Source of the DNA: Prorocentrum cordatum
Taxonomy: Eukaryota > Sar > Dinophyceae > Prorocentrales > Prorocentraceae
NCBI GenBank assembly: GCA_963575745.1
Contig: CAUYUJ010017807.1
Coordinates: 144,501-208,500, forward strand
Length of the DNA: 64,000 nucleotides
Reading direction: 5' to 3'
Shown: in pieces, positions 17,241 through 49,984 of the stretch
Numbering within the stretch: the stretch's first letter is position 1
Layout: each line of letters begins with the position of its first letter
The notes under the pieces: model-generated
What the model was told of the DNA's origin: nothing
The model's database searches: none
What the model saw: only the letters and a program-made list of their open reading frames with translations
Translations under genes and position numbers: made by a program

Positions 17241-17244
17241 CGTG

Positions 17245-24395: not shown

Positions 24396-24399
24396 GCTG

Positions 24400-25015: not shown

Positions 25016-25399
25016 GGCCCACTCACCCTGGGGGTGAGAGGTGAGAAGGCGGAGGAGGGGGTGGGGGGCGGGACAAGGAGGAGTGGGGGGAGGGGGTGCG
25101 GGGGAGGATGAGGAGGAGGAAAGGGGAGTGCGGGAATGGTGTTCGTGACCATCTGGTCCGCGGTGCGAGCCCGCGGGTTGGGGTCGTGACCGTTGTGCTC
25201 CCCCACCGTTTTTGCTCCGACTATTTTTGGATTATTTTTGGACTATTTGAATAGTCCAAAAATAGTACAAAAATAGTCCAAAAATACTCCGCCAACAAAG
25301 TTGTGTTCCTGCTAAGTGGGCTTCTGTTCTGCTAAGTGGGCTCCCGATGTGCTTGATCCTGTTGCCAGCTCCGCCTCCTGCTGCTGGTCCTGTTTTTCT

Positions 25400-25640
25400 T
25401 CTCGTCATCCTCCTCGTCCTCCTCCTCCTCCTCCTCCTCCTCCTCCACTTCCTCCTCCTGTCCTCCTCCCCATCCTTCCTCTTGTCACGTCCTACCATTC
25501 CCTCCTTCTCCTCCTCCTCCTCCTCCTCCTCCTCCTCCTCCTCCTCACTCTTCCTTGTCACCTCCTCCTCCCTCTCCTCCTCCTCCTCCTCCTCCTTCTC
25601 CTCCTCCTCCTCCTCCTCCTCCTCCTCCTCTGCCTCGGCG
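25400..25640. repeat. (CCT)n microsatellite, left arm
   Basis: Nearly pure CCT/CTC triplets with interruptions. The mirror (GAG/AGG)n block is at 45310-45700. Poly-Leu and poly-Ser translations are artefacts. Confidence 0.9.
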
Positions 25641-26029
25641 GCCTTCGGCGGCCGTCGTCGTCGGTCGTCGTCGCCGCCGCCGTCGCCGAAAGCGTCCTCT
25701 TCCTGCTAAGTGAGCTTCTGGCATGCTAAATGCGCTTCGTTTGCTTGATCCTGTTGCCAGCCCTGCCTCCTGCTACTGGTGTTGCACAGTGGTTCATGCC
25801 AAGCTGCATGGGGAGCTCTGGAAAAACAACTACACCTCCTCCTCCGTGCTCCTCCTTTCCCTCTCTATCTCTATCCCGCATCTCACGCAGTGGAAGCCAC
25901 TGTCTGTTCCCATTGCATGGAGGGCCTTTGCGTTGCATTGCATGGCATTGCATTACAACGCATGGCATTGCATTTCTGTTGCGTCACTTCCCATGGCACT
26001 GCATTACATTGCGTTGAGAGATCGTCGCA

Positions 26030-27390
26030 ACTCTGGGCTCCGCGTTGCGGGGGGCAAGATGGCCTGGCCCATTTCGCATGATACATCCTCGCAACTCTGG
26101 AATCCAAGATGCCACGCGCGAAGTGGTCCGGTCCGTTTCGCCATCTTCGCAATTCTGGGCTCAGATATGCCCCTAACCTGAGTAGGTCCAGCCCGCTTCG
26201 CCTTAGACATCCTCACGACTCTAGGCTCAGACATGCCGCGCGCGAGGTGATCTGGACAATTCTACTTCAGACATTCTCGCCTGAGATGTCCTCCCAACTC
26301 TGCGAGATGCCGCGCGCGAGGTGGTCTGGTCAATTTAGCCTGAGACATCTTCGCAAGTCTGGGCTCCTAGATGCCGCGCGTGAAGAGGTGCGGCCCGGCT
26401 CGCCTGAGGATCCTCGCAACTCTGGGCTCATCTATGTCCTGGCTTGATGTGGTCCGACCCATGTCGCTTGAGACATCCTCACAACTCTTGGCTCAGAGAT
26501 ACCTTTCGCGAGGTGGTCTGGCCCATTTTCGCCAGAGGCATCCTTGCACCTCTGGGATCGGAAATGATCTGACCTGAGTTGGTCTGATTCGCCCTGGACA
26601 TCCTCGCAACTCTTGGCCTAGATATGCCCTGACCTGAATTGGTCCGGCCCAGGTCGCCCAGGGCATGCCCGCAATTCTGGGATCCGAGTTGCCAGGCACG
26701 AGGTGGTCCAGCCAAACTCGCCTCACACGTCCTCGCAACTCTTGGCTCCGAGAGACCGCGTGCGAAGTGGTCCGGCGGATTTTGCATGCGACGTCTCTGG
26801 GCTGCAAGATGTCGCGCGCGGGCTCAGATTTACTCTGACCTAAGCTGGTCCAGCCCGTTCCGCCTGATACATCCTCGCAACTCCAGGTTCAGAGATGCCG
26901 CGCGCGAGGTGGTCTGGCCGATTTCGCCTGAGACATCCTCGCAACTCTGGTCTCAGAATTGAATTGTTGTGGCCTGAGGTGATCTGGCCCGTATCGCCCG
27001 AGACATCCTCACAACTCTAGGCTCGAAGTTGCGACGCGCGAGGTTGTCCTGTCCGGTTCGCCTGAGACATCCTCGCAACTCTGGGCTTCGAGATGCTCCT
27101 GACTTGAGGTGGCCTGGCCAATTTCGTCTGAGACGTCTTCGCAACTCTGGGCTCAGACATGCCGCGCCTGAGGTCGTTTGGCCAATTTCGCTTGATGCGT
27201 CCCTGCAACTCCGGGCTCAGAGATGATGCGCTCGAGGTTCTCGGGCCAGATTCGCCTGATCCATCCTCGGAACTCTGGGGTCGGGCCAATTTCGCTTCAG
27301 ACCTCCTCGCAAGTCTGGGCTCGCTCCGAGATTCAGCGCGCGAGGTAGTCCGGTCAGTTTGCCTGGGACATCCTCACAGCTGGGCTCCCA
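26030..27390 (+). repeat. About 62-bp satellite, array L1
   Basis: About 21 copies of a 60-66 bp unit are marked by TTCGCCTGAGACATCCTCGC then AACTCTGGGCTCAGA and a GCCGCGCGCGAGGTGGTC segment. The orientation is defined here as forward. The same satellite forms arrays L2, R2 and R1 in alternating orientation. Confidence 0.93.
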
Positions 27391-27394
27391 GGGG

Positions 27395-28420
27395 TGGGGG
27401 GGAGGAGTCAGACGGGGCCAGGCACAAGCTACCTGTTACAGTACCCTGCTGATGCCGAATTGTGCCCCAGTAGGGGCCCAGGCGCCCCTGCCCCGAGGGA
27501 ACAGTTAGCCGGCGCCGAGGCGAGAGCATGATTTCTGAGTCATGTGGAAGGAAGTCTCAGGCGGGGGGGCGCCATGCCTTAGTTAGTACATGTTGACATC
27601 TTCAGCGAGAGGAGAACTTGGAGGGCGAAGAGGAGAACCAGGAGTACGAGGGGCGAGAAGAACCAGGGGAAGAGCAGCAGGAGCACGATGACGAGAATGA
27701 GGAGAAGAAGAGAAGGGGGAATAATAACGACGAGGATAATGAGGAATGGAATGAGTCGGGGGAGGAGAAGGAGTGGGAGGAGAAAGAGCAGGAGGGATGC
27801 GCGGGAGGGGGAGAGGGCAAGAAGTATGGCAATGAGGACGATGTCAGCAATGACGACGACAGTGATGGCGACAAGGGCGCAGGCAAATCAGCAATATGTG
27901 GAGCCATCCTGCCTCAAAATCGTTGTTGGGGATGCTGGACTGAGGCTATAAATCGGTCTGTTGGTGCTGCTTCTCCGCCTCGTCTTCCTCCTTGTCCTGG
28001 TCCTCCTGCTGCTGCCTCCTCCATATCCCCCCCAACCCCTCTTGCTCCTCCTTGCAGGCTCCCCTCCTCGTCCTCATGTTCCCTCCCCGCTCCCCCCTTT
28101 TCCTCCATATTCTCGCAAGGATTGTGTTGATGTTGGTGCTAAGAAAGGCGCTGCGCCTGACGGTGCCGGTATCGATATCGATGCCGGTGCCGGTACCGAT
28201 GCCGGTATCGGTACCGGCACCGGGCCATGATCGGCATCGGTATCTCAGCAGAAGATACAGCCAACACCAAAAGCGTTTCGCTTCCGATCGCGCTTCCTGC
28301 CCCTTGGGTCTTAGGCGTTCGCCACGTCCTACGCGTTCTCAGCAGACGTGGTGCGGCGAACGCCTAAGATCTACAAGGCGGCCTGTGCTGAGATGAGGCC
28401 TGCGCTGCAAGGGTCTTCTC
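27395..28420. other. Unique plus GA-rich part of left arm; no gene
   Basis: 27400-27600 is low-repeat and holds CCGAGGCGAGAGC. 27610-27880 is a GAG/GAC-rich purine run. 27880-28300 contains a GGTATCGGTACCGG palindromic cluster (28165-28225). All parts have mirror partners at 42170-42998. Lys/Glu-rich open frames here are repeat artefacts. Confidence 0.6.
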
Positions 28421-28450
28421 AGCAGGGGCACCCGGGTGCCCCTGCTGAGA
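28417..28450. repeat. Perfect 34-bp palindrome
   Basis: The sequence TCTCAGCAGGGGCACCC and its exact reverse complement are joined without a spacer. A one-mismatch version lies at 41850-41883 in the right arm, and diverged versions flank the sub-centre at 28570-28600 and 41995-42025. Confidence 0.97.
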
Positions 28451-28699
28451 GGAAGTGGGTCTGACCCTGGGATCGTCGTCTGGATCTGATGAGACAAGCT
28501 CCATTTGGGGGGCGTCGTCTCAGCAAGCCCAGCCGACGATCCCGGAGGCAGACCCGCGCCCTCTCTGCAGAGGCACCTGGGTGCCCCTGCTGAGAAGAGC
28601 TCTGCAGCGCAGGCCTTCTTTCAGCAGAGGCCACAGTGTGGATCTTGGGCGTTTGCCGCGGCCTCGGCCGGCCGTTCGCTTTTGCCGCGGCGGGCGGCC

Positions 28700-28920
28700 G
28701 CCCGTTCATCCGATTCGTCGTCGTCGTAGTCGTCGCCGTCGTCGTCATCATCAGGACCCTCGTCATCGTCATCGACGACAGTATCATCGTCGGAGACGCC
28801 ACCATAAGAATCATCGTCGTCAACATCGTCGTCATCATCGTCGTCGTCATCGTCATCATCACCGTCGCCATCGTGCCCGCCGTCACAGTCACCCTCGCAA
28901 TCGACATCATGAGCCGTCAT
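28700..28920. repeat. GTC/ATC trinucleotide block
   Basis: Interrupted CGTCGTCATCATC repeats. The mirror CGA/GAT block is at 41575-41740. Poly-Asp translations on the reverse strand are artefacts. Confidence 0.85.
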
Positions 28921-29880
28921 TCCAATCGTTGTCGTCGTCACCGTGAGCGCCGATGCCGCTGGCATATATTGCAGTCGCCATGATCGGTGGATCGTCGCCA
29001 TCAGCGAGATCCACATGATGACGACTACCATCATCTTTATCATATCCATCCTCCTGTTTATCTTCTGCCTTCTGATGCGCAGTGCTTTTTATGCCCCCCT
29101 GATCCTCTGTACTTATTCCTTGGGCAATCGTAGAAAGTGAGGAACAATAAGTGAGGAGAAGGACGGGGAGTGAGACGTGAGAAAAGAGCAGGAGTTGGAG
29201 GAGCAGCGGGGGGAGGATTGGGGATGGAAGAGGGGCAGTAGCAGAAGGAGGACCAGGACAAGGAGGAGGAGGGCGCGGAGCAGCAACACATGATGAATAA
29301 GTGATAGCCAGGGGCCAGCATCCCCAGCAGAAATGTTAAATCCAACGTTGATTCAAAGCTTGTTCGCGAGTCCTCCGAATCATCGTCATCCTGTTCCTGA
29401 TTGGCATGCGCCCGTCTCGTGATCACTGTCGTCGTCGTTGTTGTCGCCGTCGTCATCATCATGTTTCTTGCCGCCTACCCGCCCACGCAACCTCATCGTC
29501 CTCACTTTCCTCCGCCTCCTCATGCCGTTCCTCTCTCTCCTCGCCGTTTTGTTCCTCCTTCTCCTTTTTATCATCATTCTCGTCGTCGTGCCCCTGATGC
29601 TCTTCCTCATCATGTCCCTCCTCGCCCCTCATCGTACTCTGGGTTCTCCTCCTTGCCTTCATATTTATCCTCTCGTTGGAGATTTCTTCAACATTTATTC
29701 CGGCCTAGCGCTCCCGCGTGAGACGCCCTTCCAAATGACACAGAAGTCCTGCTCTCGCCTCGGCGCCAGCTAACTGCCCACTCGGGCCAGGGGCGCTTGA
29801 ATCCCCTCCTGGAGGACGATGCGATAACAGCAGTGTAATCAAACTGGTTGTTTGGTCCTGGCCCCGTCTGGGAACCCAGT
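28920..29880. other. Low-repeat and CTC-rich part of left arm; no gene
   Basis: Mirror of about 40610-41560. The segment 29640-29860 is also an inverted, roughly 75-80% identical copy of 27430-27640, which shows the smaller palindrome nested in this arm. Confidence 0.55.
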
Positions 29881-31015
29881 TGCGAGGATGTCTCAGGCGA
29901 GCAGGCTGGGTCACCTAGCGGGCCACATCTCAGAGCCCAAAGTAGCGAGGATGTCTCAGGAGAAACAGGCCAGGCTACCTAAAGTCAGGGCATCTCTGAG
30001 CCTGGAAATGCAATGATGCCACAAGAATCTGGCCAGACCACCTCGCGAGCAGCATCTGAGCCTGGTGTTGCGAGGAAGTCTCTGGCGAAGCGCGTCAGCC
30101 AACCTCGCGCGCGGCACGTCTGAGCCCGGAGTTGCGAAAATGTCTCGGGCGGAACGGGCCATACCACCTCAGGTCAGAGCATATATCAGCCCAGAGTTGC
30201 GAGGATGTCTCAGGCAAAGTTGGCCAGACCACATCGCGCGCGGCATGGTGGAGCCCAGAGTTGCGAGGATCTCGCAGGCGAAAATGGCAAAACCACCGCG
30301 CCCGCGACACTTGGGAGCCAAGAGTTGCGAGGATACCTCAGGCGAAACTGGCTGGACCACCTCGCCCCTGGCATCTCGAAGACCAGAATTGCGAGAATGT
30401 CCCAGGCGAGCTGGGCAGGACCACCTCAGGTCAGGGCATATCTGAGATTGGAATTGCGAGGATGTTTCAAGCGAATCGGGCCGGACCAGTTCATGTCAGA
30501 GCATCTCCAATCCCAGAGCCGCGACGATGTCTCGGGCGAGAATGGCCGGTCCGCTTTGTGCGCGGCGCGTCTGAGTCTGAGCCCAGATTTGCAAGGGTGT
30601 CTCAGGCAAAATGGGCCAGACCACCTCGCGCGCGGCATATCTGAGACCAGAGTTGCGAGGACATCTCAGGCGAAATGGGCCATACCACATCAAGCCAGGG
30701 CGTACCTGAGCCCAGTGTTGCGAGGATGCTCAGGCGAGCCCGGCCGCACCATCTCGGGCGGAGTTGGCAAGACTACCTGGCGCATAGCATATCGGAGCTC
30801 AGAGTTGGAAGATGTCTCAGGCGAAACGGGCCAGGCCACCTCAGGTTCAGGCATCTCTGAGGCCAGAGTGGCGAGAATGTGTGAGGCAAAATTGGCTGGA
30901 TCACCTCGCGCGCGGCATGTCTGAGCCCAGAGTTGCGAGGATGTCTCAGGCGATTTGGGCTGGACCTGCTCAGGTCACGGCATCTCTGAGCCCAGAGTTG
31001 CGAGGATGCCTCTGG
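29880..31015 (-). repeat. About 62-bp satellite, array L2 (inverted to L1)
   Basis: The same unit as L1 in reverse complement (AGAGTTGCGAGGATGTCTCA and GACCACCTCGCGCGCGGCAT), about 18 copies. Confidence 0.93.
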
Positions 31016-31019
31016 CTTC

Positions 31020-31770
31020 CACTGTAGGGGCCAGCGGGCCTCGCAAGGTCAGCGACCTCGGTGATCGGTGACCTGCCAGAGCCTCCAAGAGGCCTCGTGA
31101 GGTCACCGACGTCGGGGACCTGCCGCGGCCATCAACGGGCCTCGCGAGGTCACCGACCTCGGTGACCTGCTGGGGCCTCCAGCGGGCCATGCAAGGTCAC
31201 CGGCCTGTGTTCGATATACGGTGGCCTGCCAGGGGGTCCAAAGAACCTCGCAAGGTCTCGGTGACATGCGGGGCCTTCAAAGGGCCCCTTTAGGTCACCC
31301 ACCTCGGTGACCTTCCCGGGCCTCCAGCGGGCTTCGCAAGGTCACCAGCCTGGGTTTAAGACTCGGTGATCTGCCGGAAGCTCCAAAGGGCCTCGCAAAG
31401 TCACCGACCTCGGTACCCTGCCGGGGCCTTCAACGGGCCTCGCGAGGTCACCGACCTCGGTGACCTGCCAGGGCCTCCAGCGGACCTCGCAGGGTCACCG
31501 GCTTGTGTTCGATATGCGGTGGCCTGCCGGGGGTCCAACGAGCCTCGCAAGGTCACCGACCTCGGTGACCTGCCAGGGCCTTCAACGGGCCTCGCAAGGC
31601 CACCGACCTCGGTGACTTGCTGGGGCCATCAACGGGCCTCGCGAGGTCACCGACCTCGGTGACCTGCCTGGGCCTCCAACGGGCCTCGCAAGGTCACCGT
31701 CCTGTGTTCGACATTCGGTGACCTGCCCAGGCCTCCAGAGGGCCTCGCGAGGTCAACAACGGCTGCCAGG
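31020..31770. repeat. About 52-bp GGTCACCGACCTCGGTGACC satellite, left
   Basis: About 14 copies of a 50-54 bp unit are marked by GCCTCGCAAGGTCACCGA and TCGGTGACCTGCC. Each unit holds a hairpin (GGTCACCGA, two bases, TCGGTGACC). The mirror array is at 38820-39490. Confidence 0.92.
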
Positions 31771-31779
31771 GCCTCAAAC

Positions 31780-31859
31780 GGGCATCGTCGTCATCGTCGT
31801 CATGGCCGTCGTCGTCGTCATGGCCGTCGTCGTCGTCGTCGTCGTCGTCGCGCCGTCGC

Positions 31860-31891
<32 letters not shown>

Positions 31892-32455
31892 CACTATAGA
31901 ACGGTTCTCGCGCGCTGGACACCGGACACCGAACACTGGACACCGGACACCGGGCACTGGACACCAAGCAGCGGGCACCGGACACCGGACACCGGACCCG
32001 GACATTGATGGTGATGTTTATGTTGGCGTCGATGACGACTACGGTGATGATTGCGATGTTGATAGTGACGTTGGTCGTGACGATGCAGACGGCGACGGTG
32101 ATATGATTATGATGGTGACGAAGTTGACAATAAAGTTGACCATGATGGTGATGGTAATGACGATGATGACGATGACGATGTTGATTGTTACGATGATTGT
32201 GATGTCGCTGCTGATGATCATAGCGAATATTATGCTTTTGCTGACTGATAAAGTGGAGGAGGAGGAGGAAGAAGAGGGAGGAGGAGGACGGGTCGTCGTC
32301 GCGGTCTTCGTCGTCGTCGTCGCCTTCATCGTCGTCGTCGTCGCCTTCATCGTCGTCGTCGTCGTCGTCGCCTTCATCGTCGTCGTCGTCGTCGCCGACG
32401 CCCTTCGTCGTTTTCGTCTCCCTCGTCGCCCTCGCGGAGGTCCAGCAAGACATAT
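31780..32455. repeat. GTC microsatellites, GGACACC minisatellite and GAT-rich DNA
   Basis: (GTC)n lies at 31785-31890, a GGACACC-type 7-10 bp minisatellite at 31915-32005, GAT/GAC-rich text at 32010-32250 and (GTC)n again at 32290-32425. Mirror partners lie at 37890-38820. Confidence 0.85.
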
Positions 32456-32459
32456 TGAA

Positions 32460-32660
32460 CACTATTTTAATGTCTCGCCCCGACCGACCCGCCCCGCCCG
32501 CCCGTTAGGGTCCGCCCGCCGGACCCGACCCGCCCGTTAGGGCACGCGCGTGCCAACTCGATGATGTTTCCTACTTTAATGTCCCGCCCGCCCGACCCGA
32601 CCCGCCCGTTAGGGTCCGCCCGCCCGACCCGACGCGCCCGTTGGGGCCCGCTCCTGCTGC
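32460..32660. repeat. CCCGCCCGTTAGGG repeat, left
   Basis: A CCGACCCGCCCGTTAGGGTC motif recurs four times among CCCGCC-rich text. The mirror is at 37690-37880. Confidence 0.8.
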
Positions 32661-32664
32661 TCCT

Positions 32665-33340
32665 CATCCTCCTGATCATCCCCCCACTCCTCCTCCTCCT
32701 CCCCCTCCTCCTCCTTCTCCCCATCCACCTCCTCCTCCTCCTCCCCCCTCCTCATCCTCTTCATTCCCCCTCATCCTCATCATCATAATCCTCATTATGC
32801 TGCTGTTCTTCCTCCTCCCCATCCTCATCATCCTCCACATCCTCTACCTCCCCCTTCTCTTCATCATCGCCATCATTATCATCCTCCTGCTGCTCCTTCC
32901 CCTCCTCATCCTGATCCCCCTCCTCATACTCCTTATGCTGCCATCCTGCTGCTGCTGCATCCTCGTCCTGCTGCTTGTCCTCCTCCTGCTCATCATCGTC
33001 ATTATAATCATATAGCTCCCCCTCATCATCCTTATCATCCTCCTCAACATCCTCATCCTTCTCCGTCTTCTCATCCTCCTCATTATCTTCAGCCTCATTC
33101 TCCTGATCCCCCTCCTTATCCACCCCTTCCACATCCTCCCCCCGTCCTCCTCATCCTCCTCATCCTCTCCTCCACCTCAGCCTCCTCCTCCCCCTCATCC
33201 TCCTGCTGCTTATCCTCATCCTCATTCTGATTACTGTTATCCGTTATCCTCCTCCTCCTCCTCCTCCTCCTCCTCATCACCATCATCATCCTCATCCTTC
33301 TGCTGCTGCTGCTCCTCCTCCCCGGCCTCATGCTCTGCAA
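32665..33340. repeat. CTC/ATC pyrimidine-rich block, left
   Basis: Long CTCCTC and CATCATC runs with scattered interruptions; the mirror is 37010-37680. Asp/Glu-rich frames on the opposite strand are artefacts. Confidence 0.8.
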
Positions 33341-33344
33341 CTGA

Positions 33345-33590
33345 AGCCAGACACTGGACACCGGACACGGGACCGGACTCCGGACTCGGGACACCGGACT
33401 CCGGACACCAGCAGACACCAGACACCGGACGCCAAATGCCAGACTCCAGACTCTGGACGCCGGACGCCAGACACCAGACACCAGACACCGGAAACCGGAC
33501 ACCGGACGCCGGATGTTGGACGCCAGACGCCGGACACCGGACACCGGACACCGGCACTGGACACGTGTCACCGGGCACCGCAAGAATCGT
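33345..33590. repeat. GGACACCGGAC minisatellite, left
   Basis: Repeats of 7-10 bp (GGACACC, GGACGCC, CAGACACC) over 240 bp. The mirror, read as GGTGTCCGG, is at 36795-37015. Confidence 0.9.
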
Positions 33591-34425
33591 CCATACTTTC
33601 GTCGTCGCAGTCGTCGTCTCCATCGTCGTCTTCGTCGTCGTCGTCAGCGTCGTCGCCTCGTCGCGTCGTCGTTGTCGTCTTTGTCGTCGTCGTCGTTTGT
33701 CGTCGTCGTCGCCCTCGCCGTCGTCGTCGTCTTCGTCGTCATCGTCGTCGTCGTCGAGTCGTCGCCGTCGCTTTCGTCGTCGTCGTCGCCCTCGTCGTCG
33801 TCGTCATCGTCGTCTTTCTCGCCCTCGTCGTCAGCGTAGTCATCGTAGTCGTCGTCGTCGTCTTCGTCGACGTAGTAGTAGTCGTCTTCGTCGTCGTCGG
33901 CGTCGTCTTTGTCGACGTCGTTGTCGTCGACTTCGTCGTCTTCGTCGTCGTCGCTTTCGAAGCCGTCGTCGTCGTCGTCGTCGCCCTCGTCGCCCTCGTC
34001 GTCGTTGTCGCCATGGTCGTCGTCGTCGGCGGCGTCGTCGTCGTAGTCGTCATCGTCGCCCTCAGCGTTGTCGTCGTCGGCGTCGTCGTCGTAGTCGTAG
34101 TCGTCGTCGTCGCCGCCGCCGCTGCCGTCGTCGTCGTCGTCGTCGTCGTCATCGTCGTCGTCGTCGTTCTCGTCGCCTTCGTCGTCGTCGTCGTTGTAAT
34201 CTTCGTCGTCCTTGTCGTCGTCGTCGTCCTCGTCATCGTCGTCGCTTTCAAAGCCGTCGTCGTCGTCGTCGTCCTCGTCGTCGCCGTCTTCGTCGTCGTC
34301 GTCGTCGTCGGCGACGTTGTCGTCGCCGCTGTTGTTGTCGTCGTCGCCGCTGTCATCATCGTCGTCGTCGTCGCCGCCATCGTCCTCGACGTCGTCGTCG
34401 TCGTCGTCGCCTTCTCTCTCCGGCG
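33590..34425. repeat. Long (GTC)n block, left
   Basis: About 830 bp of interrupted GTCGTC. The mirror (GAC)n block at 36250-36795 is about 290 bp shorter. Open frames of 285-415 codons here are poly-Asp, poly-Thr, poly-Val or poly-Arg artefacts. Confidence 0.95.
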
Positions 34426-35345
34426 ACCCCCACCCATAGGAAAAGTCCAGGAGAAGTCCAGTTGGACTTGTCCTATTGGCTCTCCGGCGACCCCCACCCA
34501 TAGGAGAAGTCCAGCTGGACTTGTCCTATGTGTCTCTCCGGACCCCCACCCATAGGAGAAGTCCAGCCTGGACTTGTCCTTGGATGGGTCTTTCCGGCGG
34601 ACCCGCACCCATAGGAAAGTCCACCGGAGGCCCCCCCTATGGATGGGGTGCTTGGCTCTCCGTCGACCCCCACCCATTAGGAGAAGTCCATCTGGACTTG
34701 TCGTATTTGGCTCTCCGCGACCCCCACCCATATGAGAAGTCCAGCCTGGACTTGGTGGGGTTGCTCGGCTCTCCGTGACCCCACCCATAGGGAGAAGTCC
34801 AGCTGGACTTGTCCTATGGGTGGGGTGCTTGGCTCTCCGGCACCCCCCACCTCTATAGGAGAAGTCCAGCTGGACTTGTCCTATGGGTGGGGTGCTTGGC
34901 TCTCCGGCGAGCCCCACCCATAGGAGAAGTCCAGCTGGACTTGTCCTATGGGTGGGGTGCTTGGCTCTCCGGCGACCCCCACCCATAGGACAAGTCCAGC
35001 TGGACTTGTCCTATGGTTGGGGTGCTTGGCTCTCCGGGCACCCCCACCCATAGGAGAAGTCCAGCTGGACTTGTCCTATTGGCTCTCCGGCGACCCCCAC
35101 CCATAGGAGAAGTCCAGCTGGACTTGTCCTATGGGTGGTTTGCTTGGCTCTCCGGCAACCCCCACCCATAGGAGAAGTCCGGCTGGACTTGTCCTATGTG
35201 AGGGGTGCTTGGCTCTCTGGCGACCCCCACCCATAGGAAAAGTCCAGCTGGACTTGTCCTATGTGTGGGGTGCTTGGCTCCCCGGCGACCCCCACCCCCA
35301 CCCATAGGAGAAGTCCAGCTGGACTTGTCCTATGGGCGGGGTGCT
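34425..35345. repeat. About 65-bp self-complementary satellite, left of centre
   Basis: About 14 copies of a 64-66 bp unit are marked by GGCTCTCCGGCGACCCCCAC and AAGTCCAGCTGGACTT. Each unit is itself an inverted repeat around GTCCAGCTGGAC. In the copy at 34983-35016 the palindrome is perfect over 34 bp. Confidence 0.95.
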
Positions 35346-35666
35346 TTTCGCTCAGCGCTAAAAGCAAGCGAAATTTCTCCTATGGGGGGGGGGGGGTTCC
35401 CCCAGACCCCCCCCCCCCCATAGGAGAAGTCCAGCTACAGACTTCTCCTCTGGGGGTGGGGGTCTGGGGACCCCCCCCCCATAGGGGATCGCCCTCACAT
35501 ATTGATTCCCTAAGTTAGGCATCACCCCTATGGGGGGGGGAGGTCCCCAACCCCCCCCCCCCAATAGGAGAAGTCCAGTGGACATCTCCAATGGGGGGGG
35601 GGTCTGGGGACCCCACCCCACCCCATATGAGAAATTTCGTTTTGCTTTTCGCGCTAGCGAAAAGCA
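35344..35666. repeat. Centre of the giant inverted repeat
   Basis: A motif found only here, GCTTTTCGC...GCGAAATTTCTC (35344-35384), is mirrored at 35622-35666. Between them lie poly-G/poly-C tracts (for example 35386-35399 and 35405-35419) and diverged halves of the 65-bp unit. The symmetry axis falls near 35505, in a short AT-richer sequence. Confidence 0.85.
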
Positions 35667-36245: not shown

Positions 36246-36249
36246 AGCG

Positions 36250-36617: not shown

Positions 36618-36649
<32 letters not shown>

Positions 36650-36795
36650 CGACCAGGGCGACGACGGCGACGAGGGCGACGACGACGACGAGGGCGACGA
36701 CGACGACAAAGACGATAAAGACGACGATGAAGACGACGACGACGAGGGCGACGACGCCGACGACGACGACGACGACGACGAGGGCGACGACGACT
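36250..36795. repeat. (GAC)n block, right
   Basis: Interrupted GACGAC triplets, the mirror of 33590-34425. Confidence 0.95.
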
Positions 36796-37513
36796 GAGAC
36801 GACGTCCGGCGTCCGGCGTCTGGCGTCCGGCGTCCGGTGTCCGGTGTCCTGTTTCCAATGTCCGGCGACCGGCGTCCAGCGTCCGGCGTCTGGCATTTGG
36901 CGTCCGGTGTCCGGTGTCTGGTGTATGGTGTCCGTTGTCCTGTGTCCGGAGTCTCGTGTTCGGTGCCCCTGTCCGGGCGCCTGGTGTCCGGTGTCCGGTG
37001 TCTGGCGTCAGTTGCAGAGCATGAGGCGGGGGAGGAGCAGCAGCAGCAGGAGGATGAGGATGATGATGGTGATGAGGAGGAGGAGGGTACCAAAAATCAT
37101 AATGAGGATGAGGATAAGCAGCAGGAGGACGAGGAGGCGGATGTTGAGGTGGAGGAGGGGGTTGAGGAGGATGAGGAGGATGGGGGGGAGGATAAGGAAG
37201 GGGTGGATAAGGAGGGGAATCAAGAGAATGAGGCTGAAGATGATGAGGAGGATGAGGAGACGGAGAAGGAGGAGGATATTGAGGAGGATGATGAGGATGA
37301 TGAGGAAGAACTATATGATTACAATGACGATGATGAGCAGGAGGACAAGCAGCAGGACAAGGATGCAGCAGCAGCAGGATGAGGAGAATGAGGATGAGGA
37401 GGAGAAGTAAGGAGCAGCAGGAGGATGATGATGATGATGCGATGATGAAAAAGAGGGGGAGGTAGAGAAAGAGGAGGAATATGGGGAGGAGGAACAGCAG
37501 CAGAATGAGGATT

Positions 37514-37567
<54 letters not shown>

Positions 37568-38820
37568 GGAATGGAGAGGATGAGGAGGAGGGGAAGGAGG
37601 ATGAGGAGGAGGTGGACGGGGAGAAGGAGGAGGAGGAGGAGGAGGAGGAAGAGTGGAAGATGATCAGGAGGATGAGGAGCAGCAGGAGCGGGCCCCAACG
37701 GGCGTGCCGGACCGGCGGGTGGACCGTAACGGACGGGTCGGGTCGGGCGGGCGGGACATTAAAGTAGGAAACATCATCGAGTTGGCACGCGCGTGTCCTA
37801 ACGGGCGGATCGGGTCCGGCGGGCGGACCCTAACGGGCGGGCGGGTCGGTCTGGGCGGGACATTTAAATAGTGTTCAATCTGTCTTGCTGGACCTCTGCG
37901 AGGGCGACGAGGGAGACGAAAACGACGAGGGCGAGGACGACGACGACGACGACGATGAAGGCGACGACGACGACGACGACGATGAAGGCGACGACGACGA
38001 CGAAGACCGCGACGACAACCCGTCCTCCTCCTCCTCCTCCTCCGCCTCCTTCTCCTCGTCTCCTCCTCCTCCCTCTTCCTCCTCCTCCTCCCCCACCTTC
38101 ACAGTCATCAGAGCGTAATACTCGCTATGATCGTCAGCAGCGGCATCAACATCATCATAATCATCACCAGCATCGTCATCGTCATTATCATCACCATCAT
38201 CACCATCACCATCATCACCATCATCACCATCATCATCATCATCACCATCATAACCATCATCACTACCATCACCATCATCACTACTACCACCACCACCATC
38301 ATCATCACCATCATCACCATCATCACCACCGACATCCTTATCGTCATCATCATCATCGTCGTCATCATCATCGTCATCATCATCATCATGGCATGGTCAA
38401 CTTCATTGACAGCTTCGTCATCACCGTAATCATCATCACCGTCGTCGTCGTCGTCTGCATCCAACGCACTCATTACCGTAGTCGCCATCAACACCAACAT
38501 AAACATCATCATCGACGTCCGGGGCCGGTGTCCAGAGTCCGGTGTCCGGTGTCCGGTGTCCAATGTCATGTGTCCGGTGCCCGGTGTCCAATGTTTGGTG
38601 TCCGTTGTCTAGTGTCCGGTGCCCGATGCCCGGTGCCCGGTGTCCAAGGCCCGGTGTCGGGTGTCAAGTGTCCGGTGTCTGGTATCCGGTGCCCAGTGTC
38701 CAGCGCGCGAGAATGGTTCTATAGTGCGACGACGACGACGGCGGCGGCGACGGCGGCGACGACGAAGACGACGGGGGCGACGACGACGACGACGGCGACG
38801 ACGACGATGACGACGATGCC
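36795..38820. repeat. Right-arm mirror of 31780-33590: minisatellites and trinucleotides
   Basis: In order: GGTGTCCGG minisatellite (36795-37015), GAG/GAT-rich block (37015-37680) with a pure (GAT)n at about 37514-37566, TTAGGG/CGGGCGGG repeat in reverse (37690-37880), GAC block (37895-38010), CCT block (38025-38100), CATCATCAC block (38130-38400), second GGTGTCC minisatellite (38520-38705) and GAC/GGC block (38725-38820). No gene. Confidence 0.88.
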
Positions 38821-39490
38821 GAGGCCCCGGCAGGTCACCGAGGTTGGTGACCTCGCGAGGCCTTTTGGAGGCCTGGGCGGGCCACCGAATGGTGACCTTG
38901 CGAGGCCCGTTGGAGGCCCGAGGCCCGTTGAAGGCCACGGAAGGTCACCGAGGTCCGTGACCCTGCGAGGCTCGTTGGAACTCCTGGCAGGCCACCGCAT
39001 GTCAAACACGGGCCGGTGACCTTGCGTGGCCCGCTGGAGGCCCGGGCAGGTCACCGTGGTCGGTGACCTCGCGAGGCCCGTTGAGGGCCCCGGGAGGTCA
39101 CCGAGGTCGGTGATTTTGCGAGGCTCTTTGGAGCCCCTGGCAGGTCACTTAGTCTCAAATCCAGGCCGGTGGCCTTGCGAAGCCCGCTGAAAGCCCGAAG
39201 GTCTCCGAGGTCGGTGTCCTCATGGGGCCCGTTGAAGGCCCCGGCATGTCACTGAGACCTTGCAAGGCTCTTTGGACCCCCCGGCATGTGACCGTATATC
39301 GAACACAGGCCAGTGACCTTGCGTGGCTCGCTGGAGGCGCCAGCAAGTCACCGAGGTCGGTGACCTCGCGAGGCCCGTTGAGGGCCCCGGGAGGTCGCCG
39401 ACGTCGGTGACCTCGCGAGGCTTTTTGGAGGCCCTGGCAGGTCACCGATCACCGAGGTCGGTGACTTTGCGTGGCTCGCTGGCCCCTACA
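38820..39490. repeat. About 52-bp GGTCACC satellite, right
   Basis: The inverted partner of 31020-31770, about 12 copies, with GGTCACCGAGGTCGGTGACC as the typical hairpin. Confidence 0.92.
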
Positions 39491-40600
39491 GTGGAAGCCA
39501 TAGGCATCCTTGCAACTCTGGGCTAAGAGATGTCGTGACCTGAGCAGGTCCAGTCCAAATCGCCTTAGACATCCTCGCAAGTCTGGGCTCAGACATGCCG
39601 CGCGCGAGGTGAACCAGACAATATTGCCTCGGACATTCTCGCGACGCTGGCCTCAGAGATGCCTGAACCTGAGGTGACCTGGTCAGTTTCGCCTGAGACA
39701 TCTCCGCCGCAAATTTGAGCTCCCAGATGCCATGCGCCAGGTGATCTGGCCAGTTCCGCCTGAGATATCTTCGCAACTCTGGGCTTAGATGCCGTGCGCG
39801 AGATGGCGCGGCCGGGCTCGCGTGAGCATCCTCGCAACACTGGGCTCAGATACGCGCTGACTTGATGTGGTACAGCCCGTTTCGACTGAGATATCCTCGC
39901 AACTCTAGGCTCAGAGATGCCTTTCGCGAGGTGGTCTGGCCCATTTTGCCTGAGACACCCTTGCAGTTCTGGGTTGAGACTCAGACATGCCGCGCACGAA
40001 ACGGTCCAGACATTCTCGCCCGAGACATCATCGCAGCTCTGGGATTGGAGATGCTCTGACCTGATTTGGTCCGGCCCGATTCGCTTGAAACATTTCCGCA
40101 ACTCCAAACTCAGATATGCCCTGACTTGAGGTGGTCCGGCCCAGTTCGCTTGGGACATTCTCGCAACTCGGGTCTCCGAGATGCCAGGCGCGAGGTGGTC
40201 CAGCCAGTTTCGCCTGAGGTATCCTCGCAACTCTGGGCTCCTAGATGCCGCGCGCAGGGTGGTTTAACCATTTTCGCCTCCGACATCCTCGGAATTCTGG
40301 GTTCCTCCATGCCGCGCGCGAAAGTCTGGCCAACTTTCCCCGAGACATCCTCGCAATTCTGGGCTCAGAGATGCCGCGCGCGAGGTTGGCCGGCGCGCTT
40401 CGCCTGAGGCATCCTCGCAACTCCAGCCTCAGAGACGCTGCGCGCGAGGTGGTCTGGCCAGGTTCAAGGATGCCCTGAATTGAGGTAGCCCGGCCAGTTT
40501 CGCCTGAGACCTTTTCGCAACGCTGGGCTCCGAGATGTGGCGCGCTAGGTGGCCCAACCCGTTCGCCTGAGACATCCTCGCAAAAGGGCTCCCAGACGTG
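39490..40600 (+). repeat. About 62-bp satellite, array R2
   Basis: Same orientation as L1, about 18 copies; the mirror of L2. Confidence 0.93.
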
Positions 40601-40743
40601 CCAGGACCACACGACTAGTTATCGAGTCGTCTTCCAGGAGGGGTTCAACCGCCCTTGGCCCGAGGGGGCAGTTAACCGTGCCGAGGCGAGAGCCGGATTT
40701 CTGATTCATGTGGAAGGACGTCTCAGGCGGGAGCGCCAGGCCA

Positions 40744-40745
<2 letters not shown>

Positions 40746-40776
<31 letters not shown>
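40746..40776. repeat. (AT)n microsatellite, right arm only
   Basis: About 30 bp of alternating A and T. The left-arm partner near 29680-29705 lacks it, so it expanded after the duplication. Confidence 0.95.
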
Positions 40777-40779
<3 letters not shown>

Positions 40780-42990
40780 AGGAAATCTCCGGCGAAAGGA
40801 GAAAAATGAAGGCAAGAAGGATAACTTTGAGTACGAGGAGGGGCGAGGAGAACCCGGATGAGGAAGAGCATCAGGAGCACGATGATGAGAAGGATGATAA
40901 AGAGGAGGAGGAGGAGGAGGAGGAGGAGGAGGAAAGTAACGGCGAGAAGTAGGAGGAACGGCATGAGGATGCGGAGGAGAAGGGAGGGCGATGAGGTTGC
41001 GTAGGAGGGTGGACGGCGAGAAACACGATGAGGACGGCGACATAAACAACGACGACGACATTGATAACGACAAGGGCGCACGCAAATCAGGAACAGGAGG
41101 ACGGTGACTCGGAGGACGAGAACAAGTTTTGAAGCCACATTAAATCTAGAGTCGCTGATGAGGATGCTGGACCCTGGCCTTAATATATTCCTCCTTCGTC
41201 GCTGCTCCGCGTCATCCTTCTGCTACTGCTGCCCCTCACATCCCCCATCCCTCCGCTGCTCCTCCACGTCCTGCTCTTTTCTCACGTCTCGCCCGCCGTC
41301 CCCCCCCCCCACACACACACTTCTCGCTCCTCACTTTCCACGCTTGTCCAAGGATGAATTAAAGAGGATCAGATGGGCCGCAGATGCGCAGAGTATCAGA
41401 AGGCAGAGGAATATACAGCGGAGGATGAAGATGAATAGTATGATTGCCGTGACGAGGTGGATCGCAACGATGGCGGCGACCCGCCGACCATGACGACTGC
41501 AATATATCACAACGGTATCGGCGCTCAAGGTGAGGACGACAACGTTTGCAATGATTCGTCATGAAGTTGATTGCGAGTGAATTTGATGATGAGCACGGTG
41601 GTGATGACGATGACCACGATGATGATAAGGACGATGATGATGATGACGACGATGGCGATGATAATGATGATAACGTCGACGACAACGACGAGGGTCCTGA
41701 CGACGACGGCGACGACTACGATGAAGACGAATCGGATGAACGGCCGGCCGCCCGCCGCGGCAGAAGCGGACGGCCGGCCGAGGCCGCGGCAAACGCCCAA
41801 GAGATCTACGCGGCGGCCTCTGCTGAGAAAGTCTGCGCTGCAAGGCTCTTCTCAGCAGGGGCACCCGGGTGCCTCTGCTGAGAAGGCGCGGGCCTGATCC
41901 CGGGATCGCCCGCCGGGCGTGATGAGACGACGCCCTCCAAGTAGAGCTTGTTTCATCAGGGCCAGACGACGATCCCAGGGTCAGACCCACGTCCTCTCAG
42001 CAGAGGCACCCGCGTGCCTCGGTGGGAAGACCCCTACAGCGCAAACCTCATCTCAGCAGACGCCGCCGTGTAGATCCTAGACGTTCGCCGCGCCACGTGC
42101 TCTCAGCAGGGCCGCTGGGTTGGCCTTGCCGAGAACGCGTAGAATGCGGCAAACGCCTAAGACCCCAGGGGCAGGGGGCTCGATCGGAAGCGAAAAGCTG
42201 TTGGTGTTGGCTGTATCTTCTGTTGAAATACCGATGCCGATCATGGCTCGGTACCGGTACCTGTACCGGCATCGGTACTGGTATCGATAGCGATACTGGT
42301 ACCGACAGGCGCAGAACCGTTCTTAGCATCAACATTCGCACAGTCGGAGAGAGGGGGCTGCAAGGAGGAGCAGGAGGAGTATGGGGGGAGATGGAGGAGG
42401 CAGCAGCAGGAAGAGGACCAGGACAAGGATGGTGACGAGGCGGAGAAGCATCACCAACATACCGATTTATAGGCTCAGTCCAGCATCCCCGACAGCGATT
42501 TTGAGCCAGGGCGGCTCCAAACATTGTTTGCGCGTCCACCGAATCATCGTCCTCCCGCCCCTGATTTGCCTGCGCCCTTGTCATCATCACAGTCGTCGTC
42601 ATTGCTGGCATCGTCCTCTTTGCCGTGCTTCTTGCCCTTTCCCCCTTCCCAAACCTCCTTCTCCTCCCCCTCCTTCTCCTCCCCCCGTCATCCCGTTCCT
42701 CTTTCTCCTCGTTTTTCTTCTTCCTCGTCCTCTTATTTTCCTCGTTATCACCATCGTGTTCCTGATGTTATTCCTCCTGGTTCTTCTCGCCCCACCTCGT
42801 TCTCCTGGTTCTCCTCCTCGCCCTCGAAGTTCTCCTCTCGCTGGAGATTTCAACGTGTACCAGGGCGTGTCCGAAATTCATGTTCTCGCCTCGGCGCCGG
42901 CTAACTGCCCCCTCGGGGCAGGGGCGCCTGGACCCCTCCTGGGGCACAACTCGATATTAGCAGTGTAGTGTGACAGGAAGCTTGGGCCTG
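40780..42990. other. Right-arm mirror of 27395-29700; no gene
   Basis: GA-rich text (40795-41060), low-repeat DNA, GAT/GAC block (41575-41740), sub-centre near 41940, the one-mismatch 34-bp palindrome (41850-41883), GGTACCGGTACC cluster (42248-42305), CTC-rich text (42640-42840) and GCCTCGGCGCCGGC (42889-42902). About 45 bp near 42515-42560 have no partner at 27905 in the left arm. No credible gene. Confidence 0.6.
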
Positions 42991-44800
42991 GCCCCGTCGG
43001 AGCCCAGTTGTGAGGATGTCTCAGGCAAAACTGACTGGACTACCTCGTGCGCGGCATCTCGGAGCCCTGAGTTGCGAGGAGGTCTCAGGCGAAATTGGCC
43101 CGACCATCTCTGGCGCGGCATTTTGGATCCCAGAGTTGCGAGGATGGATCAGGCAAATCTGGCCGGAGTACCTCGAGCGCATCATCTCTGTGCCCGGAGT
43201 TGCGGGGATGCATCAGGCCATATTGGCCAAGCGACCTCGGGCGCAGCATGTCTGAGCCCAGAGTTGCGAAGATGTCTCAGGCGAAAATGGGCCAGATCAC
43301 CTCAAGTCAGGAGCATCTCTGAGCCCAGAATTGCGAGGATGTCTCAGGCGAACTGGACCGGACAACCTCACGCGTCGCAATTTCGAGCCCAGAGTTGTGA
43401 GGATGTCTCTGGCGACATGGGCCAGATCACCTCAGGCCACAACAGTTCAGAGACCAAAGTTGCGAGGATGTCTCAGGCGAAACGGGCCCGACCACCTCGC
43501 ACGCGGCATCTCTGAGCCTGGAGTTGCGAGGATGTCCCAGGCGAAACAGGCTGGACCACCTTATGTCAGAGTATCCCTGAGCCCGCGCGCGACTTCTTGG
43601 AGCCCAGAGTTGCGAAGATGTCGCAGGCAAAATTAGCCGGACCGCTTCGCACGCGGCATCTCGGAGCCCAGAGTTGCGAGGAGGTCTGAGGCGAGTTTGA
43701 CTGGGCCACCTCGCGCCTGGCATCTCGGATCTCAGAGTTGCGTGAATGCCCCGGGCGAATGGGGCCAGACCGCCTCAGGTCAGGGCATATCTGAGCCCAG
43801 AGTTGCGAGGATGTCACAGGCGAATCGTGCTGGACCAACTCAGTCAGAGCATTTCCGATCCCAGAGTTTCGATGATGCCTCTGGCCAAACGGGCCCGACC
43901 ACCTCGCACGCGGCATTTCTGAGCCTGGAGTTGCGAGGATGTCCCAGGCGAAACAGGCTGGACCACCTTGTGTCAGAGTATCCCTGAGCCCACGCGCGAC
44001 ATCTTGGAGCCCAGAGTTGCGAAGATGTCGCAGGCAAAATTAGCCGGACCGCTTCGCACGCGGCATCTCGGAACCCAGAGTTGCGAGGAGGTCTGAGGCG
44101 AGTTTGACTGGGCCACCTCGCGCCTGGCATCTCGGATCTCGGAGGTGCGTGAATGCCCCGGGCGAATGGGGCCAGACCACCTCAGGTCAGGGCATATCTG
44201 AGCCCAGAGTTGCGAGGATGTCACAGGCGAATCGTGCTGGACCAACTCAGTCAGAGCATTTCCGATTCCAGAGTTTCGATGATGCCTCTGGCGAAAATGG
44301 GCCAGACCACCTCGCGAGAGGTATCTCGGAACCCAGAGCTGCGAGGAGGTCTCAGGCGAAGTGGGCCCGAACCACATTAATCCAGGACATATATGAGCCC
44401 GGATTTGCAAGGATCCTCAGGCGAGCCGGGCCGCACCTCTTCGCGCGCGGCATTTGGGAGCCCAGAGTTGCGAAGATGTCTCAGGCGAAATTGGCCAGAC
44501 CACCTCGCGCGCGGCATCTCGCAGAGTTGAGGAGAATGTCTCAGGCGAGAATGTCTGAAATAGGCTTTTCCAGATCACCTCGCGCTCGGCATGTCTGAGC
44601 CAAGAGTCGCGAGTATGTCTAAGGCGAAACGGGCTGGACATCCTCAGGTTAGGGGCATATCTGAGCCCAGAGTTGCGAGGACGTCTCAGGCGAAATGGAC
44701 TGGACCACTTCGCGCGTGACATCTTGGATCCCAGAGTTGCGAGGATGAGTCAGGCGAAATGGGCCAGGCCACATTGCCCCTGGCAGCTCGGAGCCCAGAG
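42990..44800 (-). repeat. About 62-bp satellite, array R1
   Basis: Orientation opposite to L1, about 28 copies, the longest of the four arrays. An internal stretch of about 420 bp is repeated directly: 43555-43905 and 43970-44320 share near-identical text, including the rare unit ending CCCGCGCGCGACTTCTTGG / CCCACGCGCGACATCTTGG. Confidence 0.93.
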
Positions 44801-44819
44801 TTGCGAGGAACTCTCAACG

Positions 44820-45008
44820 CAACGCAACGCAGCGCAATGGGAAGTGACGCAACAGAAATGCAATCCCATGCGTTGTAATGCAATGCCATGCAATGCCATG
44901 CAATGCAATGCAATGCAATGGCATTCCATGCAAGTGCAATGCAGCATATGCAAAATGCAAGTGCAGATGGGCATGAGACAGAGGCTTCCACTGTGGGGGA
45001 TGCGGGAT

Positions 45009-45075
<67 letters not shown>
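44820..45075. repeat. GCAAT-type repeat and (GA)n, right arm
   Basis: ATGCAATGCC repeats (44870-44950) mirror the TGGCATTGCAT repeats at 25920-26020. The (GA)n at 45011-45070 is much longer than the CTCTCTATCTCTATC at its left-arm partner (about 25860-25875). Confidence 0.9.
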
Positions 45076-45081
<6 letters not shown>

Positions 45082-45309
45082 AAGGAGCGCGATGAGGAGG
45101 ATGTGGAGTTGTTTTCCAGGTCTCTCCGTGCAACTTGGCATGAACCACAGTGCAACACCAGGAGCAGGAGGCGGGGCTGGCAACAGGATCAAGCACATCG
45201 GAAGCGAACTTAGCAGGAACACGACGAGGGCCGCCGAAAGCCGCCGAAGGCCGCCAGGGGCTGCCGAAAGCCACCGACGGCCGCTGAAGGCCGCCGAAGG
45301 GCGACGAGG

Positions 45310-45662
45310 CAGAGGAGGGGGAGGAGGAGGAGGAGGAGGATGAGGAGGAGGAGGAGGAGGAAGAGGAGGAGGAGGAGGAGGAGGAGGAGGAGGGGGGAGG
45401 AGGAGGCAAGGAGGAGGAGGAGGCATGGAGAGGAGGAGGTGGAGGAGGAGGAGGAGGTGGAGGGGAGGAGGAGGAGGAGGAGGGGGAGGAGGCGGAGGAG
45501 GAGGAGGAGAGGAGGTGGAGGGAGGTGAGATGGGGTGAGTAGGGGGAGGAGGCAAGGAGGAGGAGGAGGGAGAGGACGAGGTGCTAGTAGGACGTGAAAA
45601 GAGGAAGGAAGGGGAGGAGGACGAGGAGGAGGAAGTGGAGGAGGAGGAGGAGGACGACGAGG
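45310..45662. repeat. (GAG/AGG)n microsatellite, right arm
   Basis: The mirror of the left-arm CCT block, expanded relative to it. Confidence 0.9.
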
Positions 45663-45900
45663 AGGAAAAACAAGACCAGCAGCAGGAGGCGGAGCTGACA
45701 ACTGGATCAAGCACATCTGGAGCCCACTTAGCAGAACAGAAGCCCACTTAGCAGGAACACGACTTAGTGGCAGGTGAGCTGAGGCTGAGGCTGAGCAGGA
45801 AAAACAAGACCAGCAGCAGGAGGCGGAGCTGACAACTGGATCAAGCACATCTGGAGCCCACTTAGCAGAACAGAAGCCCACTTAGCAGGAACACGACTTA
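45663..45900. repeat. 104-bp direct duplication at outer end of right arm
   Basis: 45663-45766 and 45797-45900 appear identical by eye. The left arm carries one inverted copy (about 25303-25400) with roughly four differences. Each copy contains CCCACTTAGCAG twice. Confidence 0.92.
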
Positions 45901-45904
45901 ACAA

Positions 45905-47960
45905 CAGTTCTCCGATCCGCCCCGCGAATTTTCTTGGAGTGGGGACGCGACCCCTCATCCTCCGCTCGCGCCGCGTCCGTGAAAGGCATGACGCGCATCG
46001 CGTCGGCCCCGCGGTGTCGGGCACAATCGTTGATGCCGCAACGCTCCGCGCGTCGACACCGTCGGGACATCGCGCAAACAAATGCGCGATGGGCGCAAGC
46101 CAATGCACGAATGCGGCAACGACCAATGCGCGCGGGCCGCCCGAATGAAACAACGAACACGTTTACAATGATCAAAACATAGTCCCAAAATAGTCCAAAA
46201 ATAATCCAAACATAGTCCAAACATAGTCCAACAATAGTCCAAAAATAGTCCAAACATACCCCAAAAATAATCCAAAAATACTCCAACTTGCATGTTAACA
46301 TGTTTACATGTACGCATGCAGCGAGCGTCGCCGCGCGCGCTAAGTACCCCCCCCCCCCCGTTCGGGAAAAAAACATCGCCGCTTGTTTTTTCATTAAACA
46401 ATGTGGTTGCATTTGCGTGCGCCAGACGGTCTGGGGCTAGGGCCCATGCGAGCCCCATAATGCGCATTTGCAAAAAAAAAAAATGCAATCAAAAATAACG
46501 CGATGCAAACACGGACGGCCAAACCGCCAAACCTTATCTGGTGACCGTTGGCCGTTGACAGCACTGTTGTCGGATAGTCGGATAGTCTATACTCAGAGAC
46601 CAGTGCGCGCTGGCATTTGGGCCCGCAGGCGCTGCATACTTGCGCGCCGAGGCACTCGGGCAATTGCCCCGCGCCCTCAAGCGACGCGCGCATGGCGCTT
46701 GGCCACCCCGACCAATGGTTCTCGGCCCACAGGTCATCGGACCTTCTGGCAAGGTGAACATCGGTTCATGAGCCACCAGCGCCCGTTATAAGCCATGCGC
46801 CTCTTCGGTTTTAGGTCCTAGACACTTGTCCCTTAGACCTTGGATCGTAGACCCCAGACCATAAACGCGGGCCCGAAAACTCGAGGCCCTCGGGTCGTCT
46901 GCTTCGCAGATATCACTGCGACCCTGTAGGCCTATCTGCTGCAATCCAGTGGGCGCCAAGCTAGACAGCTAGACGCTAGACCGCCAGGCGCTAGACGCTC
47001 ACTGCTAGATTGCTAGATGCTGGATGCTGGATGCTGGAACTGGAAGCCACATGCCAAACGTCAGAGTAAACGAAGAGCCGCGCACCCGCCAGCGCGGCGC
47101 GACGCGCGTTGCACTTGCTGTGAGCGCTTGGTGTTAAGCACAATCATGTTTGTATCTTGCTGCCTGTAGCTTGTAGTCAGCGCTGGCCGCTGGCGAGCAG
47201 TCGCGCAAGGTTGCGCCATGGGGCCAGGTGCCTGGGAGCCAGGACCCGAAACGCAGGGCTGCGCATTGCGGAAGGGGGTGAGAGGGCAAAAGCCCGCTAC
47301 CCCGCCCGCGCCTGAGACCGTCGTCGCGCTCGCTGTTCCGCGCTATCTGCAATCGGGGGTGGCGATATCAGAGGCGCGGCATCAACGGTGTCAGACGTCA
47401 GCGCTTCGAATTTGCCGCAGCACCCGCCCAAGGCGGATGCATTTTTTTAATATTAAGTGCGCGAACCAATGCGCTTTGACAATATGGTCGAACACGTGAG
47501 CCGTAAGCTCACAAATAACAATCAACAGCCCGCAGGTGGCAACCTAATAACTACTACATGAGACTTAGCCGCTTAGTGCTAAATCCAGCAGCTCCCAATC
47601 GCTTGGCGCCTCGCCTAGCCCCGAGCCCTGAGCCCCGAGCCTCTAGTCTCTGGTCGGTCACCCGTCATAGCGGGAGCTTGCTAGCTTGCTCGGCCACCCG
47701 ACATGGAGTTGCTCCAGTCGGCGCCATGTCGGCGAGGCATGTGGCCACTTGCCGTTGCGGGGGATTCACTTGCCATCCGCCATGGTCTTAGGGCACCAGG
47801 GCGTGTTTTGTTTCAGACGTCGTGGTCTCGGGGCCTTCGGATCGGGGGCCTCAGGCTCGTAATGTTGCATGGGCCCAGGGCCCCAGGGCCTTGAAGTCAT
47901 GTGGCCCAGGGGCCGTTGGTCCTTAGGCCTTGGGCCGCAGGTGAAAAGACCAGCGCAATG
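45905..47960. other. No supported gene; ATAGTCCAAAA repeat and short minisatellites
   Basis: 45905-46180 is mixed GC-rich DNA. 46180-46290 is an ATAGTCCAAAA/ATAATCCAAAA repeat of 10-12 bp units, like the one at 25225-25295 beside the other arm end. A poly-C tract lies near 46347-46358 and a poly-A tract at 46473-46484. CGCTAGAC/GCTGGAT minisatellites run at 46965-47035. Confidence 0.55.
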
Positions 47961-49923: not shown

Positions 49924-49984
49924 GCGATCGGCCGCTCCCAAAACAGGACCATTGGCAGCCTTGCATCATTGCCTGCCCCTCGGA

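Follow-up and report, generated by a model that had tools for sequence, protein, structure and literature searches.

Nested palindromes in satellite DNA of the dinoflagellate Prorocentrum cordatum, plausibly formed by two rounds of fold-back duplication

Large palindromes are generally regarded as unstable. The palindromic ribosomal DNA of Tetrahymena is the outcome of a programmed, developmentally regulated event, and primate Y-chromosome palindromes have gene-carrying arms kept near-identical through gene conversion. In the yeast experiments as reported, breaking the DNA close to an imperfect inverted repeat of 11 bp, the halves of which are 6 bp apart, leads to inverted duplications via hairpin-capped ends, and additional rounds are invoked for some clones that carry triplications or quadruplications (PMC10622511). 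The foldback element Tetris is described as having inverted repeats of up to 1,735 bp, a middle domain and target-site duplications of 8-10 bp (PMC4079207). Among the titles listed by searches of the open-licence literature for dinoflagellate long inverted repeats, palindromes and inverted-repeat satellites, for nested palindromes, and for palindromes or foldback elements in protists, none points to such a structure. Here we describe a palindrome of about 20 kb, each arm of which contains an older palindrome, in Prorocentrum cordatum. The window analysed is a stretch of 64,000 nucleotides (contig CAUYUJ010017807.1 of assembly GCA_963575745.1, positions 144,501 to 208,500 of the forward strand), and all coordinates below refer to it. 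Its G+C content is about 59%, that reported for the P. cordatum genome is 59.7% (PMC10666404), and the window is taken as nuclear DNA of this species. We favour, with a probability of roughly 0.6, two rounds of hairpin-primed fold-back duplication in P. cordatum satellite DNA as the origin of the structure.

Reverse-complement self-alignment of the window makes mirror blocks visible around one centre, and the giant inverted repeat that a sequence-only reading had placed around 35505 is real. The left arm (25298-35505, forward strand) is collinear with the reverse complement of the right arm (35507-45899, reverse strand). In a global alignment 25298-35346 runs against 45765-35662, and identity counted from 25298 is 85.7% over 8,921 aligned bases, corresponding to a Kimura two-parameter (K2P) distance of 0.16. 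Between 25290 and 35346 the alignment holds 7,651 matches and 1,278 substitutions (739 transitions, 539 transversions) versus 102 gap events. A chain of 9 collinear BLAST pieces covers 78% of the left arm, and the best arm-to-arm match outside the central array scores 1,301 bits, compared with 32.5 bits for the top match in 20 trials on dinucleotide-shuffled arms. Satellites and low-repeat DNA had both been said to recur in mirror order, and both kinds do align in order between the arms. Blocks that are not mainly satellite pair at 27540-28140 (84.9%), 28230-28700 (87.6%), 28880-29700 (78.1%) and 32340-32650 (94.4%). A scan for symmetric centres sets the symmetry point at 35506, within the 35.3-35.7 kb interval originally indicated; the centre is much narrower than that interval, the unpaired portion measuring about 37 bp (35488-35524, extent judged by eye), and it contains poly-C and poly-G tracts, which are difficult to sequence. 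The palindrome ends at 25298 on the left, and on the right at 45765, or at 45899 if a tandem copy of the final 134 bp is counted (45766-45899, repeating the arm end 45632-45765). Two collinear head-to-head copies, as in a fold-back inverted duplication, are present.

A second palindrome, overlooked by the sequence-only reading, is found inside each arm, at 26015-31016 about 28506 and at 39497-44830 about 41939. In the best local alignments its halves are 67.8% (left) and 69.2% (right) identical, and the spacer at either centre is no longer than a few tens of bases. Measured over +/-100 bp, symmetry in the window is highest about 28506 (75%), with 65% at 41939 and 64% at 35506; peak symmetry in three base-shuffled windows is 45-49%, and low-complexity places outside the repeat attain 60% (8365) and 57% (24622). 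The two inner palindromes provide four units of 2.5 kb, here called X1 (26015-28505, forward strand, outer half of the left palindrome), X2 (28507-31016, reverse, inner half of the left), X3 (39497-41938, forward, inner half of the right) and X4 (41940-44830, reverse, outer half of the right). Identity is 87.5% between X1 and X4, 83.8% between X2 and X3, and 69-70% in the other four pairs. The grouping ((X1,X4),(X2,X3)) is backed by 300 informative sites, versus 8 and 6 for the other two groupings. The comparison was redone on the core without the 64-bp array, because the register of the satellite could mislead; the same grouping gathered 141 sites versus 6 and 4 (FastTree support 1.000), a count that is inflated, as is the X1-X2 distance, by a stretch of the printed core alignment in which X1/X4 and X2/X3 look non-homologous. 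Even so, contrary sites in the core are few and allow little scope for another grouping. The small palindrome has a K2P divergence of about 0.40 (0.52-0.57 in the core), the large one of 0.14-0.18 among units (0.16-0.24 in the core). The grouping of the units, taken with a K2P of about 0.40 versus 0.16, indicates that the inner palindrome is older than the outer, that is, that the small palindrome formed first and a head-to-head copy of the entire 10 kb was made later. Nothing points to the halves of an arm having been homogenised afterwards. The in-order blocks and the comparison of the four copies support the earlier proposal of a head-to-head duplication of a 10-kb composite that had already been assembled. 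The inverted repeat itself is confirmed, but two rounds are needed where one was implied.

The nested structure, the order of its rounds, the near-zero spacers and the independent divergence of the arms are plain at the locus. Among the mechanisms that had been listed, fold-back amplification fits best, and no support was found for a structural chromosome element. According to the scenario that we favour, a break or a stalled fork would have exposed single-stranded DNA, a short hairpin would have folded back, and its 3' end would have primed synthesis on its own strand; the copied arm would then have been rejoined to the downstream flank on the right, which is not a mirror of the left flank. 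In a first round, a unit of about 2.5 kb made of 64-bp satellite and low-repeat core would have been turned into a 5-kb palindrome. The inner side of this palindrome would have gained further satellites, ending in a 65-bp array with a hairpin unit, and in a second round the whole segment of about 10 kb would have been copied into its inverted partner. Hairpin-shaped satellite units would be the seeds, and the locus would therefore be primed to repeat the event. We take the palindrome to have arisen incidentally, through replication or repair, in non-coding DNA that tolerates it, and claim no cellular function for it.

Candidate seeds were surveyed as short symmetric sites in the whole window, at a cut-off of at least 17 of 20 positions. 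Of the 21 sites that result, 19 fall within the repeat, another is on its left edge (25248.5) and the last is well away from it (8034.5); a single base-shuffled version of the window yields none. Stricter cut-offs leave the 65-bp arrays and 25248.5 only, and at 25 of 30 the latter alone persists: it marks the middle of a short palindrome, built of 11-bp units, immediately beyond the left end (25219-25290; 27/30 symmetric positions). About 72 bp from 28506, the centre of the left inner palindrome, there is a hairpin of 34 bp (28417-28450). On folding, the 65-bp unit has a z score of -6.1 and segment 28417-28466 of -5.4; the pieces spanning centres fold well, as palindromes must (28440-28570, z -7.1; 35432-35581, z -7.5), and the 47- and 64-bp units are unremarkable (z -1.3 and -1.4). 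Short inverted sequences are thus found beside the centres, as hairpin units that may or may not predate the duplications. The 11-bp repeat CAAAAATAGTC occurs just outside both ends of the large palindrome, as the short palindrome at 25219-25290 and as one-way copies, about 270 bp off, at 46173-46286. Another 11-bp satellite, CTGAGGGCTTC, with partly self-complementary units, occupies 24397-24988, just left of the palindrome.

Several points weigh against two fold-back rounds. Of the 19 hairpin sites inside the repeat, 15 are copies of one 65-bp unit; among the other four, one falls in an AT run (40760.5) and two are mutual counterparts (28433.5 and 41866.5), so that hairpin enrichment outside the 65-bp arrays is thin. 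The hairpins could also have been produced or multiplied after the duplication. Spacers in human fold-back duplications are given as 766-70,466 bp (PMC3907307). Fold-back at a chromosome break gives a dicentric, and the differing flanks demand a second, unseen junction. Moreover, the matched arm ends and the 42-bp identical run adjoining them also suit a transposon.

The main rival is indeed a giant non-autonomous foldback transposon, the arms being terminal inverted repeats of great length that enclose tandem repeats, and the transposase being encoded elsewhere; we hold this to be possible, though unlikely. Long inverted repeats with internal tandem repeats are present, and such repeats are a feature of foldback elements, Tetris being an example (PMC4079207). 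The ends at 25298 and 45899 match, each starting with AAGTYGTGTTCC followed by the 42-bp identical run, and both are flanked by the 4-bp AACA, a match with a chance of 0.49% per pair if the freedom in choosing the ends is disregarded. However, AACA is seen at this choice of ends only, the alternative right end at 45765 has no flanking match, and a target-site duplication of 8-10 bp, as in Tetris, is absent. Within the window the full 12-bp end motif has exact occurrences only at this locus, the right arm carrying it twice (45754-45765 and 45888-45899). A public protein on another contig, P0064, is 56-81% identical in pieces to the low-repeat core, which in the left arm lies at 27540-28350; a related core therefore exists elsewhere, in P. 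cordatum or in another species, and this speaks for the transposon. On the other side, a near-zero spacer takes the place of a middle domain, and the arms are six times as long as the longest Tetris repeat (1,735 bp). Five arm open reading frames (ORFs) were scanned, and none carries a Pfam family above the cut-off, two sub-threshold matches being to families of unknown function. Protein-coding cargo was rejected on the basis of these five. Lastly, a transposon does not readily accommodate an inner palindrome older than the outer one.

Less probable still is a fusion of sister chromatids, or template switching during replication, without a hairpin seed and followed by breakage and repair. The near-absence of a spacer at all three centres speaks for it, being cited as a mark of sister-chromatid (U-type) fusion (PMC3907307); taken alone, it gives no account of why both rounds are centred in hairpin-rich DNA.

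A folded-back read would leave the arms identical apart from indel-type read error. The differences are mostly substitutions (1,278 against 102 gap events), and a folded-back long read is therefore no explanation. Moreover, 62 proteins related to the left-arm 64-bp array, encoded on public contigs, were compared with both arms. For P0002, identity is 97.9% with the left arm and 71.8% with the right; for P0005, 97.2% with the right arm and 73.5% with the left; and for P0030, 91.3% with right-arm positions 42982-43500 and 53.8% with their left-arm counterpart. The other 59 reach at most about 72% to the arms, considering the best four pieces of each. Judging from these translated matches, both arm versions exist on separate contigs. 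P0004, inspected by eye, is right-arm-like for about 140 residues and left-arm-like thereafter; it may be a crossover between the arms, another copy or a chimeric contig. Altogether, a sequencing or assembly artefact, whether a read folded back on itself or two loci wrongly joined, is very improbable: the assembly does combine PacBio and Illumina data (PMC10666404) and the poly-C and poly-G tracts are a difficulty at the centre, but the arms are 14% different, chiefly by substitutions (739 transitions to 539 transversions) and by a 406-bp array difference, symmetry is kept to within about 19 bp of the centre, where a mis-join of diverged loci would hardly land, and each arm version is present at 97-98% on a separate contig. 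A collapsed or chimeric arm likewise seems unlikely, because of the 14% difference and of the close match that each arm has elsewhere.

The mirrored series is composed of 64-, 47- and 65-bp satellites and of TCG, GGACACC and CTC-type runs. The 64-bp satellite, its unit mapped by BLAST, forms four blocks of alternating strand because each arm holds an inner palindrome: 26033-27386 (reverse), 29878-31016 (forward), 39518-40586 (reverse) and 43006-44816 (forward), the last with an expansion of about 406 bp that the left arm lacks. At the protein level, the segment 30124-30921 of this satellite has 62 relatives, all on short public contigs, of which one, in a eukaryote set, is labelled Pyramimonas; the 64-bp satellite is therefore a wider family. 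No satellite patterns or relatives were found in viral and prokaryote contig collections, searched in part by exact pattern only. The 47-bp satellite is located at 31031-31727 (forward) and 38842-39482 (reverse); the block of TCG runs, GGACACC 7-mers and CTC-type runs at 31785-34409 (forward), mirrored at 36254-38816 (reverse); the 65-bp satellite with the hairpin unit at 34449-35346 (forward) and 35662-36252 (reverse). Divergence between the arms is uneven, with a variance 3.5 times binomial over 89 windows of 100 aligned bases each. A sharp step occurs near 32329, from 25-32 differences per 100 before it to 4-5 per 100 in 32410-32614, and points to a short conversion tract, to constraint acting locally or to replacement of the adjoining sequence. 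The block concerned (32329-32680, forward strand; mirror 37660-38003) includes identical runs of 66, 62, 45 and 36 bp. The arms have not been kept near-identical: these 350 bp or so are all that looks recently alike, against 85.7% overall.

The flanks do not extend the mirror. A still larger palindrome was rejected: among 16 mirror-orientation rows in the flanks, the 11-mer repeats aside, only the inverted pair 8762-8905 and 62644-62788 (146 bp, 87.7%) has its midpoint near the centre, at about 35775, some 270 bp away, and this may be a coincidence or a dispersed element. Direct duplications are also observed, one flanking the palindrome (9068-10273 and 48769-49975; 1.2 kb, 88.7%, with similar ORFs), the other at 17241-18106 and 60639-61493 (74.7%). 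The sole protein match of ORF 11604-13502 is the P. cordatum protein P0001, which is 95-96% identical to 12240-14484 and, through its first 79 residues, to 52343-52579. P0001 probably derives from another copy of the gene; its order puts the 52-kb piece first, so that two incomplete copies, both from one gene family, seem to be present in the window. Both pieces match on the forward strand, and a strand-switch boundary between convergent genes is unsupported. The window contains no Rfam family at gathering threshold, no tRNA and no spliced-leader fragment.

This locus preserves two tiers that differ in age, along with the order in which they arose, and is thus a natural record of repeated head-to-head duplication. 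This raises the question whether long palindromes arise more readily, or are better tolerated, in dinoflagellates than in other eukaryotes, and whether they thereby add to the very large, repeat-rich genomes of dinoflagellates. It may be speculated, though we regard the idea as rather doubtful, that such palindromes are self-feeding, hairpin satellite units seeding a duplication, and the larger palindrome with its doubled satellites favouring the next. If common, self-feeding palindromes would be a route of growth for dinoflagellate intergenic DNA separate from retroposition and whole-genome duplication.

Among known systems, the ribosomal DNA palindrome of Tetrahymena is similar in that short inverted repeats seed a large palindrome, as they would at the P. 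cordatum locus, and differs in that nothing here suggests programming. The primate Y palindromes share large inverted arms around a short spacer; the P. cordatum arms, in contrast, are diverged, and no gene was recognised in them. Tetris of Drosophila virilis, as described, likewise combines inverted repeats with tandem satellite units (PMC4079207), and no transposase is recognised in it or among the five arm ORFs scanned here, but the P. cordatum arms are 10 kb long as opposed to 1.7 kb at most, have neither a middle domain nor an 8-10 bp duplication, and are each palindromic. The fold-back inverted duplications reported in yeast (PMC10622511) and human (PMC3907307) likewise have head-to-head copies centred on a short inverted sequence, secondary rounds having been suggested in the yeast work. 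Spacers differ, being about 37 bp at 35506, 0.8-70 kb in the human set (PMC3907307) and 6 bp in the yeast repeat (PMC10622511). Unlike those duplications, the one in P. cordatum is old (14% divergence) and interstitial, has hardly any spacer, and consists of two nested tiers that differ in age.

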